DNA of 33,235 nucleotides from Pelagibius sp. (GTDB taxonomy: Bacteria; Pseudomonadota; Alphaproteobacteria; Kiloniellales; Kiloniellaceae), in the NCBI RefSeq assembly GCF_028289705.1, contig NZ_JANQOI010000168.1, forward strand, positions 1-33,235, written 5' to 3'. The notes below the pieces were generated by a model, which had not been told where the DNA came from, did no database searches, and was given only the letters and a program-made list of their open reading frames with translations. Within the stretch, counting starts at the first letter, position 1. The number at the start of each line of letters is the position of its first letter. The translations under genes and the position numbers were made by a program. Of this stretch, positions 25,577-29,021 are shown piece by piece.

Positions 25577-27298
25577 TCAGCGCTGGGTGAGCTTGAACTC
25601 GATGCGGCGGTTGCGGCGGAAGGCGATCTCGTCGTCGCCGGCATCCAGCGGCTGAAACTCGCCGAAGCCGGTGGCGGCCAGCCGGTTCGCCGGGATGCCC
25701 CGCTCGATAAGGAACTTCACCACCGAGATAGCGCGCGCCGAGGAGAGTTCCCAGTTGGAGGGGAACTGGAAGGTGGCGATGGGCGCGCGGTCGGTGTGGC
25801 CGTCGACGCGCAGCACCCAGTCCAGCTCCGCGGGGATGGTTCCCGAGATTTCCCGCAGGGTCTCGGCCAGCCGGCCCAACTGGACCTGGCCCTCCTCGCC
25901 GATGGTGGCCGAGCCGCTGCCGAAGAGGATCTCAGACTGGAAGACGAAGCGGTCGCCGACGATGCGGATGTCCTGGCGGTTGCCGATGGCTTCGCGCAGC
26001 CGGCCGAAGAACTCGGAGCGGTAGCGCGCCAGCTCCTGCACCTTGCTGGCCAGGGCGACGTTGAGGCGCTTGCCGAGATCGGCGATCTGCACCTGCTGAG
26101 CCTCGTTCTCCGCCTCCGCCAGATCGAGGGCCTCGGAAAGGGTGGTGAGTTGCTGGCGCAGCGCCGCCAGTTGCTGGTTCAGGAGGGAGATCTGGATCTG
26201 CGCCTCTTCGGAAAGCTGCTGCTGCTCCGCCAGGGCCTCGCCCTGTTCCCGTCCCGCGGCCTCGGCTGCCTTCAACTGCTCGGCCAGGTCGTCGCGCAGG
26301 GACTTGAGGATGGCGATCTCGGCCAGCTGGGTTTCGATCTTCGCCTTGTCCGCCTCGATGGTGGCATAGGCGTCCTCCAGATCCGCCTTGCCGGCGGCGA
26401 TCAGCGCCAGGGCCTCCTCCAGCTTCTTCTGGTCGGTGCTCATGCGCGCCAGCGCCGCCTCCAGCCGGGCGCGTTCGGCATCCAGCTCCGCGTTGCGGGC
26501 GGCCAGCGCCTGGCGGATCGTTTCCAGCTCTTCCTGGGTGAGGCTCTGGGCCTCCCGGCTCGCCGCCAGTTCCTCCTCGCTGGCGGCCAAAGCCTGCTGG
26601 CTTTGCTCCAGATCCTCCTGGCTTTGGGCAAGGTCCTGGCGGCTGCGTTCCAATTCCTCGGCACGGGCCGCGAGGGTTTCGCGGTTTTCCTCCAGCAGGG
26701 CCTGGACCGCCGCGAGGGCCGTCTCGCGCTCGCTGAGGTCGCTGCGCAACTGGGCCTGGGCCTGCTCGCTCTCGCCCAGCAAGGCCGTCAGCCGCCCGGT
26801 CTCGTCCTGCTCGCTGGCCAGCAGGCGGGCCAGCTCGTCGCGTTCGATGGTCAGGCTCGAGAGCTGCTCCGACAGGCTGTCGCGTTCGCTGAGCAGGGCG
26901 GCGAGCTGGTTGGTCAGGCTGTCGCGCTCGTCGGCCAGGGAGGAGACCTGGCTGGAGAGCGACTCCTGCTGTTCGCTGAGGGCGGCGAGCTGGCTGGCCA
27001 GAGACTCCCGCGAGGCGAGGGACGACTGCAGCTCGGAGGAAAGCTGCGCCACGTTCACCCGCAGTTCCTCGTTAGCGCTGCGCTCCAGCGCCAGCAGGTC
27101 GGCCAGCTCGGCGATCTCGCTTTCCAGGCGCAGCAGCGCCTCGTCCTTGCCGGTCAGGGCGACCGACAGGAAGAACTGCGCCACCATGAAGACCATGAGG
27201 ACGAAGATGACCACCAGCAGCAGGGTGGCGAGGCCGTCGACAAAGCCCGGCCAGATGTTGATGGACCGGCGCGACCCGCCGCGGCCGAGGGCGTACAT
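25577..27298 (-). CDS. MotB-like protein with long periplasmic coiled coil and OmpA domain
   Basis: A 573-residue protein. A short cytosolic N-terminus is followed by one helix at 22-45 with Asp21 at its start (WPGFVDGLATLLLVV), the layout of MotB/ZorB proton-channel partners. Residues about 50-435 are almost continuous coiled coil, including near-perfect 14-residue repeats at 98-167 (e.g. ESLASQLAALSEQQ, DSLTNQLAALLSER). Residues 443-573 form an OmpA-like peptidoglycan-binding domain (VLRVDGHTDRAPI, SSARAISVVKFLIERGI, RRNRRIEFKL). It likely pairs with the MotA/ExbB-type protein encoded upstream and transmits proton-driven motion to the cell wall. GTP- or flagella-related genes are not nearby. 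Confidence 0.88.
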   Translation of the reverse strand: MYALGRGGSRRSINIWPGFVDGLATLLLVVIFVLMVFMVAQFFLSVALTGKDEALLRLESEIAELADLLALERSANEELRVNVAQLSSELQSSLASRESLASQLAALSEQQESLSSQVSSLADERDSLTNQLAALLSERDSLSEQLSSLTIERDELARLLASEQDETGRLTALLGESEQAQAQLRSDLSERETALAAVQALLEENRETLAARAEELERSRQDLAQSQEDLEQSQQALAASEEELAASREAQSLTQEELETIRQALAARNAELDAERARLEAALARMSTDQKKLEEALALIAAGKADLEDAYATIEADKAKIETQLAEIAILKSLRDDLAEQLKAAEAAGREQGEALAEQQQLSEEAQIQISLLNQQLAALRQQLTTLSEALDLAEAENEAQQVQIADLGKRLNVALASKVQELARYRSEFFGRLREAIGNRQDIRIVGDRFVFQSEILFGSGSATIGEEGQVQLGRLAETLREISGTIPAELDWVLRVDGHTDRAPIATFQFPSNWELSSARAISVVKFLIERGIPANRLAATGFGEFQPLDAGDDEIAFRRNRRIEFKLTQR

Positions 27299-27333
27299 TA
27301 GGACCCGCTATCTGGATTGGGTGCGCCATGAGA

Positions 27334-27427
27334 CGGTCGGGAACGCCCCGTGGCTAGGAGCACCGGTGCAGGCGATGTGGGCCATCGGCCAGCCGGTGCG
27401 ACGACGTCCACGGGGCGTTCCCGACCG
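27334..27427. repeat. 94-bp hairpin with perfect 20-bp arms before the motB-like gene
   Basis: Positions 27334-27353 and 27408-27427 are perfect reverse complements (20 of 20), beginning CGGTCGGGAACG. The 54-nt interior has further complementarity (GCACCGG with CCGGTGC). It lies 36 bp upstream of the motB-like start codon, on the same transcript if the motA-like gene reads through. Its right arm overlaps the left copy of the 9-bp duplication of the adjacent mobile element. Confidence 0.85.
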
Positions 27428-27431
27428 CCCG

Positions 27432-27725
27432 CACTGCTGTCCGGTTTAGCTTTCTTCCGTTTGCGAAGAGGGTCGCATTGCAAGGTGTTGGAGCCGGGCA
27501 GTTGGTTGTAGGACAGGAAAGCGAGCCCGGAGTGGTGGACGGCTTTTGGCTGAAAGGTTGTCACCCCCACCCCAACCCTCCCCCGTCGAAGGGGGAGGGG
27601 GAAGTTATTGGAGCGGCTGGGAAAACTCTCCTCCCCCCTTGACGGGGGGAGGTTGGGAGGGGGGTGAGCTACACACCCGATGGCAGCCTGTTTTCCCCGA
27701 TGCTGACCTAAACCGGACAGTAGTG
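27432..27725. mobile_element. MITE-like non-autonomous element, 294 bp, with 9-bp target duplication
   Basis: The ends are 18-bp inverted repeats, CACTGCTGTCCGGTTTAG at 27432-27449 and CTAAACCGGACAGTAGTG at 27708-27725, with one mismatch. Exact 9-bp direct repeats GACCGCCCG flank it (27423-27431 and 27726-27734). No transposase is encoded. Near the left end, minus-strand codons read NQLPGSNT, weakly like the C-terminal MPGLNT of IS481-family transposases, which hints at, but does not prove, the parent. The centre holds a GC-rich palindrome (separate entry). It sits between the motA-like and motB-like genes. The rest of the 568-bp gap (27299-27866) contains the hairpin at 27334-27427 and, right of the element, a weak stem (GCGGGGTC with GGCCCCGC) and nothing else I can name. 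Confidence 0.85.
27559..27669. repeat. GC-rich palindromic repeat nested in the MITE-like element
   Basis: The left arm TCACCCCCACCCCAACCC and the right arm GGGTTGGGAG-type sequence ending GGGGGGTGAGC are imperfect inverted repeats over about 28 bp, with smaller internal hairpins (CCCCCGTCGAAGGGGG). Elements ending in GGGGTGAG are frequent proteobacterial intergenic repeats; a related unit lies at 12889-13030. It appears to have been inserted into, or captured by, the element. Confidence 0.6.
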
Positions 27726-27866
27726 GACCGCCCGCGGGGTCGCTTTTCGCTCCGCACCCGCGGCGTGGCCCCGCTTGCCCGATGCACCACATCGTGCTGC
27801 GCGCGGCTTCTGTCAGGTGCGGCCGAAAAGTCGATCTCATGATGCACCTAATCCTGAGAGTGGGCC

Positions 27867-29021
27867 CTAGCCTTCCTCGGCCATGGCGGCCAGGGTGCGG
27901 GTCAAGAGGCGGATCTCGCTGCGCAACTCTTCCACCGCCTGTTCGCGTCCGCCGGCCATCTCCGCGGCCATGCGTTCGAGCCGCAGGTCGAGGTTGCGGA
28001 TATGGCCCTTGGTCGCCTTGTCGAGACCGGCTTCCTCGCCGCTGGCTTCGGCGATTTTCGCCAGCAGGGGCTTGAGGCTGGCCTGGGTCTCGGCGATGGA
28101 CAGCATCACCGACTGTTCGGTGCGCATGTGGTCGGTGAGGTTGCTTAGCCGCTCGGTCAGCGCCGCCAGATTCTGGTTGATGGCGACGCGGTCTTCCTCC
28201 CCGCGGGCCACGGTGCGCTGGAGCTGTTCCATACTGTCGGCGGTCTTTTCAAGCAGCGCGTGGACGTAGGCGGAGACCGGCTGATCGCCTTCGCCGGTGA
28301 CGCCGGCGCTGCTCAGCTTGGTGATGCTGGAGAGCCACTCTTCCAGCTCGTTGACGAAGCGGTTGTGGGCCTGGGCCGAGTTCAGTTCGAGGAAGCCCAG
28401 AACCAGGGAGCCGGCGAGGCCGAAGAGCGAGGAGCTGAAGGCCGTGCCCATGCCGGAGAGCGGCGCTTCCAGGCCGCCCTTCAGATCCTCGAAGAGGGCC
28501 ACCGGGTCGCTGCTGCCGCCAGAGAGGCCGCCGATGGTCTCGCCCACCGCATTCACCGTGTCCAGCAGGCCCCAGAAGGTGCCCAGCAGGCCGAGGAAGA
28601 TCAGCAGGCCGATGAAATAGCGGGAGATCTCGTGGGACTCGTCGATGCGGGTCTGGATGGTATCCAGAAGGGTGCGCATCGACATGGTGGAAAGGCTCAG
28701 CCGGCCGGCCCGATCGCCGATCATGGTGACCATGGGCCCCAGCAGCCGGGGCGGCGATTCCTGGGACAGGGTGCCGGGAAAGATCAGCCCGCCGCGGCTT
28801 TCGCGCCGTAGGGTTTCCAGCCAGTGGATCTCGCCCCTGAGGCCGAGCACCTGCACGAAGCTGAGGCCGATCCCGAACAGCAGGATCAGCATGATCAGCC
28901 CGTTGAGCAGCCAGTTGGCCAGAAAGGCGTCCTGCAATTGCGGTGCGATGAAGGCGCCGGCAATGATGACGGCAGCCAGGAAGAGCACCATGCGCAGGAG
29001 ATAGGTCTGCAGGAAGGACAT
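27867..29021 (-). CDS. MotA/TolQ/ExbB-family proton-channel protein
   Basis: A 384-residue inner-membrane protein. Two N-terminal helices (LLRMVLFLAAVIIAGAFIA and LLNGLIMLILLFGIGLSFVQ) are followed by a cytosolic stretch, then two helices in the ExbB/MotA core, FIGLLIFLGLLGTFWGLLDT and GMGTAFSSSLFGLAGSLVLG, typical of the family. The C-terminal third, from about 250, is predicted helical and cytosolic with heptad patterns. With the MotB-like protein it should form a proton-driven channel. ATG 29021 is the natural start, with a weak ribosome site. The motB-like gene follows downstream after a 568-bp gap that carries the mobile element. A stem ACCCGCTC/GAGCGGGT (29042-29068) lies in the leader. 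Confidence 0.87.
   Translation of the reverse strand: MSFLQTYLLRMVLFLAAVIIAGAFIAPQLQDAFLANWLLNGLIMLILLFGIGLSFVQVLGLRGEIHWLETLRRESRGGLIFPGTLSQESPPRLLGPMVTMIGDRAGRLSLSTMSMRTLLDTIQTRIDESHEISRYFIGLLIFLGLLGTFWGLLDTVNAVGETIGGLSGGSSDPVALFEDLKGGLEAPLSGMGTAFSSSLFGLAGSLVLGFLELNSAQAHNRFVNELEEWLSSITKLSSAGVTGEGDQPVSAYVHALLEKTADSMEQLQRTVARGEEDRVAINQNLAALTERLSNLTDHMRTEQSVMLSIAETQASLKPLLAKIAEASGEEAGLDKATKGHIRNLDLRLERMAAEMAGGREQAVEELRSEIRLLTRTLAAMAEEG

Follow-up and report, generated by a model that had tools for sequence, protein, structure and literature searches.

The gap between the motA-like and motB-like genes in the analyzed window, a 33,235-nt stretch of a Pelagibius sp. contig (NZ_JANQOI010000168.1, positions 1 to 33,235), is best explained by two nested insertions: a miniature inverted-repeat element (MITE) of the IS4 family lies inside an older mobile element made of two hairpins, and the outer of the two is probably carried as a tolerated element of the mRNA. 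We give this reading a probability of roughly 0.78. The 294-bp MITE, presumably moved in trans by an ISRel1-like transposase, inserted with a 9-bp duplication, and the point of insertion is the linker of what is, on good evidence, an older mobile element, ~264 bp long and non-coding. Within the motA/motB operon the outer element would most likely be tolerated, and possibly retained, as part of the mRNA, where its long and stable hairpin structure may space the two reading frames; neither frame appears broken, and the flanking stop and start seem intact.

The inner element occupies positions 27432-27725 (plus strand). Its 18-bp inverted ends, 27432-27449 on the plus and 27708-27725 on the minus strand, are complementary at 17 of 18 positions (94%, one mismatch), and it is bracketed by an exact 9-bp target duplication (27423-27431 and 27726-27734). 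The direct repeat starting at 27423 and 27726 was scored as 10 nt, that is, the 9-bp repeat plus a C that on one side is also the first base of the inner element. Inside lies a GC-rich palindrome (27561-27667), with matches elsewhere in the genome, whose 38-nt arms (27561-27598 and 27630-27667) agree at 84%. The element carries no transposase gene, i.e., it is non-autonomous. Ends, target duplication, further copies in the same genome, and empty sites in relatives establish a MITE-like transposition between the two genes, as the sequence-only reading of the window had proposed. The trace of an IS481-type C terminus that it had also suspected found no support: a 180-aa open frame across the region had no Pfam match (E ≤ 0.001), and the ends are those of the IS4 family (ISRel1 type). 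This frame (27298-27840, minus strand) spans both the inner and the outer element, has no family match, and is probably a chance occurrence.

The inner MITE had 33 matches in its own genome at E ≤ 0.001, the window copy included. Five of them span 285 or more of the 299 query bases, and many of the remaining ones are partial or consist of the GC-rich palindrome only. When the end pattern was searched with up to two mismatches, 14 matches were obtained (two being the window's own ends), versus one for the reversed pattern. At the same junction, four same-genus relatives (L053, L054, L057, and L058) have a single target copy and no insert; the target 9-mer is exact in the last three and carries one substitution in L053. 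Thus the sequence does not stand at the same place in all relatives and its ends recur in the genome, the reverse of either having been named beforehand as grounds for giving up an insertion. End pairs could be placed in six of the fetched own-genome copies. Only the window copy, which for this reason looks to be among the youngest, has an exact 9-bp repeat; among the other five pairs, two have mismatches at 2 of 9 positions and three at 7-8.

Three contigs of the same assembly (C10, C12, and C192) stop 97-98 bases inside such ends. Assemblies break at repeats, and the contig ends suggest that a repeated relative sits unassembled in the genome. A search of the assembly for the parent gene with the transposase profile PF14294 gave no matches. 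Among plasmid records, the 97-bp end of C12 had ten matches, all from Rhizobium, and neither the inner MITE nor the C192 end had any. In the Rhizobium locus L243, ends identical at 17 of 18 positions to those of the MITE flank a gene annotated as an IS4 family transposase, with a 9-bp duplication; in a neighboring record such a gene is annotated as ISRel1 family. The L243 transposase contains DUF4372 and DDE_Tnp_1 and matches NF033592 at 260 bits, against a cut-off of 115. Elements of the IS4Sa type have CA------T ends and direct repeats of 8-10 bp (excerpt of PMC2266710), and the inner MITE has both. It likewise has what characterizes a MITE, namely several copies, an empty site, and ends in common with an IS encoding an IS4 transposase. 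Hence it resembles ISRel1-type IS4-family elements in its ends, its 9-bp duplication, and its IS4Sa-subgroup features, and differs from them in lacking a transposase gene and in having a GC-rich palindrome within its interior. A local parent IS, with an ISRel1-like transposase acting in trans, was presumably responsible for its movement. Many IS4-type ends adjoin GGACAAGCCC or GAACAAGTCC within REP-like palindromes (own-genome loci L003, L010, L034, L038, L039, and L040, and locus L245), suggesting that this IS/MITE group prefers such palindromes as targets.

Removal of the MITE and one target copy leaves about 265 bp between the genes, a figure given correctly in the sequence-only reading, which had overlooked the content of the gap. 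It is filled by the second mobile element, of ~264 bp, which extends with the MITE from 27301 to 27867 (plus strand) and was recognized by its presence and absence in the genus and by its dispersed copies. Its terminal inverted repeats lie at 27301-27333 (plus) and 27835-27867 (minus); with flanking bases, including TA, they form 35-nt arms (27299-27333 and 27835-27869, 80%) that bracket the whole intergenic gap. On one side is the motB-like gene (25577-27298, minus strand), encoding a 573-aa protein with an OmpA domain that matches the NCBIfam peptidoglycan-binding protein PRK09039. On the other is the motA-like gene (27867-29021, minus strand; 384 aa, MotA/ExbB/TolQ type), whose TAG stop (27867-27869, minus strand) is formed by the right terminal repeat together with flanking bases. 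The motA-like protein had no Pfam or NCBIfam match and was matched by the PADLOC ZorA profile at E 9.6e-15. A role in defence was set aside because 40 of 41 genomes, the own genome included, have a homologue; the ZorA/ZorB matches reflect membership in the MotA/MotB superfamily.

Between the terminal repeats are two structured domains. Domain A (27322-27438, minus strand; covariance model R1, E 2.7e-12) has as its stem a perfect 20-nt inverted repeat (27334-27353 and 27408-27427), and domain B (27724-27848, plus strand; R1, E 8.4e-20) contains the core GCTTGCCCGATGC, with a pattern match at 27773-27796. The MITE sits in the linker between them and leaves both whole; it landed inside the older element. 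We read downstream of the motA-like gene in 30 relative loci, the own locus included. The outer element is present at this site in five of the eight genus genomes (own, G001, G003, G005, and G007), with spacers of 268-274 bp, the own spacer being counted without the MITE and one target copy. In the element-free genomes G002, G006, and G004, stop and ATG are separated by 3, 6, and 6 bp, respectively. Since three of eight genus genomes do without it, the outer element is dispensable. Of 22 loci from other genera, 19 have an ATG within ~20 bp of the stop and three are ambiguous (L064, L075, and L077). A candidate target duplication, TTA, flanks the outer element on both sides in three of the five copies at this site (L053, L057, and L058); the own copy and that of L054 carry mutations in it, and the empty sites have diverged too far to establish either TA or TTA. 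An apparent spacer around a MITE may, as here, itself be a mobile element.

Dispersed copies of the motA/motB spacer were found in G003 and G004, three in each, at 78-90% identity. For seven further copies, the joined flanks were searched in the genus: all 18 aligned relative loci lack the element, their aligned flanks lying 1-55 nt apart. That the outer family is mobile is well supported; its mover and function we infer. Gene gaps that hold copies include secD|secF and mraY|murD in G003 and psd|pssA in G004 (loci L120, L123, and L105; genes named by matches over NCBIfam cut-offs), and the test for empty relatives covered copies other than the one at psd|pssA.

A scan of named genomes with the core GCTTGCCCGATGCNCCNCATCG returned at least 117 stretches; among the 80 matches listed, the titles are those of Alphaproteobacteria or, for two, of unspecified Proteobacteria. 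We extracted 121 cores, of which 70 were 255-275 bp long with a terminal stem scoring 40 or more; 67 remained without second-strand duplicates and 56 after thinning. Most extracted copies are 257-273 bp long, closed by end repeats of 30-40 bp, and adjoin TA. Members often start with TAG at each end and occupy TA-rich sites, so that one reading frame entering the element stops at once. A preference for stop codons was considered and rejected: in 53 of 105 open frames the first stop falls between -6 and +3 of an element edge, as expected of ends that begin with TAG. In a sample of the class, Alphaproteobacteria judging by the named matches, 46 of 385 genomes had a match at E ≤ 0.001; in a sample of the phylum 26 of 398 did, 14 of them outside the class, with the weakest match (G775) covering 26 nt. 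Copy numbers per genome are lower bounds, being drawn from at most nine (class) or eight (phylum) scored candidates, own genome included. Inspection of three outside-class loci (L329, L332, and L333) showed elements of 264-287 bp that have closing end repeats and differ in the apical stem; R1 found a single domain in each. Four outside-class genomes (G614, G771, G536, and G543) are at or near the limit of ~8 scored matches, and the family may be abundant outside the class. Short forms of 159-194 bp with closing end repeats (L124, L147, L164, L185, L199, and L203) look like single-domain versions. One copy in G004 (L109:1426-1733) is longer in domain A by ~35-40 bases that include a hairpin. 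Among plasmid records, the L057 outer element weakly matched one, from Sinorhizobium, over 24% of the query.

Model R1 was built from the right-hand domain in 39 sequences chosen for diversity (alignment A1). It finds the left-hand domain as well, always on the opposite strand; the element thus consists of a terminal inverted repeat and two hairpin domains of ~100 nt that are inverted copies of each other. R1 detected both domains in 13 of 13 genus loci with the element and neither in ten of ten empty-site loci; of 39 loci in other genomes and classes, 30 have both. The predicted fold is far stabler than that of shuffled sequences (z-scores -13.2 and -12.4). Covariation in A1 is 0.350, versus 0.133 after shuffling (reached in 0 of 500 shuffles); the number of pairs changed on both sides is less striking (28 versus 24.2, 17 of 500). 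In 70 model-aligned matches, whose alignment was fitted to R1 and leans towards it, 42 of 45 pairs changed on both sides and the value is 0.648, versus 0.161 for shuffled and at most 0.114 for slid partners. Among 56 full-length elements, 89 of 107 pairs show at least two Watson-Crick types. The apical stem is invariant in A1 because the search pattern fixed it; among the wider set of sequences it shows compensated variation. A first structural alignment of 87 cores was misaligned, with weak folds (-5.8 and -15.4) and the reverse strand scoring better, and was superseded by size-matched alignments. L253 has a tandem repeat of the apical hairpin unit in its right-hand domain. Rfam 15 had no match in the window at the gathering threshold; at E ≤ 5, six loci gave five matches, all sub-threshold, the best being mir-140 on L084 (31.4 bits versus 70).

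If selection saw double-stranded DNA alone, G-U and A-C would be expected equally often at paired positions. For pairs predicted on both strands, the G-U to A-C counts for domain A, domain B, and the terminal repeat were 128:49, 47:103, and 54:71, respectively (56:23, 23:49, and 17:29 in 24 thinned sequences). Because the domains are inverted and the G-U excess falls on opposite strands, both favor the domain's own sense strand. The bias of domain A disappears when minus-strand prediction alone is used (128:133), and a sign test by column is modest (37 to 18, p 0.014, the columns not being independent). These counts suggest that each domain acts in its sense form and as a folded single strand, which might be RNA or, during transposition, single-stranded DNA. 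As the domains are inverted copies, a transcript of either direction holds one of them in sense first and the other in antisense, and the element would act the same in either orientation. Taken further, the family could represent a superfamily, undescribed within these searches, of mobile non-coding elements in Alphaproteobacteria and beyond, with two inverted structured domains read as single strands, fast-changing matched ends, and single copies in tight gaps of essential operons that can be kept as RNA elements; we rate this wider proposal slightly below an even chance. Were it true, any orientation of insertion would yield the same folded product.

The strand signal also bears on the reading that the outer family consists of ordinary MITEs of a TA-target transposase (e.g., IS630/mariner-like), in which the needs of transposition and inverted-repeat repair keep the palindromes matched and no RNA role exists. 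Like a MITE, the outer element has terminal inverted repeats, dispersed copies, and empty sites; its end repeats adjoin TA in most extracted copies, and G-U and A-C are about balanced in the terminal repeat (54:71), as for double-stranded DNA. RUP has been described as a TA-site MITE of IS630-Spn1 (excerpt of PMC2229807). Against this reading, the domains show the G-U bias. MITEs usually conserve their ends and vary inside, whereas the outer family varies in its ends, which are of several types (GAGC, ATACCAA, ACCCGC, and GTACCC), and conserves its internal loops and domain fold. In addition, when ends of the GTACCC type were searched with up to three mismatches in the eight genus genomes, no IS carried them; all 20 matches, in six of the eight genomes, were paired ends of complete elements. 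We consider an ordinary MITE family unlikely, if well short of negligible.

About equally doubtful is the view that the motA/motB copy is a host regulatory element, kept by selection, that sets how much of the two proteins is made relative to each other; the rest of the family would then be its source and not its function. The five copies at this site cluster together, apart from five other copies, with bootstrap 100 (the tree included five of the six dispersed copies and left out the one on contig C304 of G004), and they change slowly. Identity between the elements of the five species is 91-97%, versus 63-89% at fourfold sites of the motA-like gene, i.e., 1.9- to 5.3-fold less change in ten pairs; in the closest pair, G001 and G005, the whole motA-like coding sequence (95.4%) is better conserved than the element (93.0%). 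Compensatory change also speaks for this view: of 107 pairs in eight subfamily copies, 16 show changes on both sides, which 0 of 500 shuffles reached, although the count of further pair types was unexceptional (87 of 500 shuffles). Against a regulatory role, the element is missing in G002, G004, and G006, and the own-genome copy tolerated an addition of 303 bp. In a single-gene motA-like tree, carriers form two groups separated by non-carriers (supports 71 to 100), so that either one insertion was lost twice or the element arrived twice; the single origin of the motA/motB copies favors loss.

Less probable again is the reading of the outer element as a REP/BIME-like dimer, with a hairpin-recognizing transposase, tyrosine (RAYT-like) or other, moving it in the form of single-stranded DNA. 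Strand-specific wobble pairs suit folded single-stranded DNA as well as RNA, and head-to-head hairpin dimers inside longer palindromes are known for some REP families (excerpt of PMC3733652). According to the same excerpt, however, REPs measure 20-40 bp and carry GTAG or CGTC tags, while the domains of the outer element are ~100 nt long and have internal loops. Finally, that the inner MITE itself separates the genes and supplies a promoter, as the sequence-only reading had entertained, is very improbable: it does lie between both genes in its own genome, but at least five species already had them separated by the older element, the genes stay apart in four relatives that lack the MITE, and a simple scan of 27200-28000, which covers the sigma-70 type alone among promoter types, found no site. 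Terminators were not found in the same interval either.

With nested insertion of an IS4-type MITE into an older two-hairpin element as the preferred reading, the two elements compare differently with known systems. Small palindromic repeats are among the commonest non-coding parts of bacterial genomes, and their origin, mover, and effect are mostly open. To this question the outer family brings a structure backed by covariation, a strand signal, dated empty sites, and copies inserted within essential operons (secD|secF and mraY|murD), which make it testable whether such an element works as RNA or DNA, what moves it, and whether it is tolerated or used. The inner element is of an ordinary, known kind; the outer family matched no described one, and a search of open-licence literature found no description of it. 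Chunjie, a MITE of Geobacter, is similar by description only, being ~235 bp long and located in an operon apparently without disrupting it (excerpt of PMC10969869). CIR elements of Caulobacter and Brucella, which are described as ~110 bp long, with no stem closing the 5' and 3' ends and with GANTC in the apical loop (excerpt of PMC2229807), are like the outer element alphaproteobacterial and intergenic, with two hairpin arms, a linker, and TA ends. The outer element differs from them in size (264 bp), in being closed by terminal repeats, and in having no GANTC in the apical loops of inspected copies. REP/BIME elements are likewise intergenic and palindromic; the CGTC type, with stems of 8-9 bp and loops of 4-5 bases, is common in Alphaproteobacteria, often as head-to-head dimers and in some cases within longer palindromes (excerpt of PMC3733652). 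In place of a short tagged stem and loop, the outer element has a ~100-nt unit with internal loops, a variable apical stem, and closing terminal repeats of 30-40 bp. Judged by these published descriptions, it resembles CIR and REP/BIME elements in kind and is set apart from both by the features that define them.
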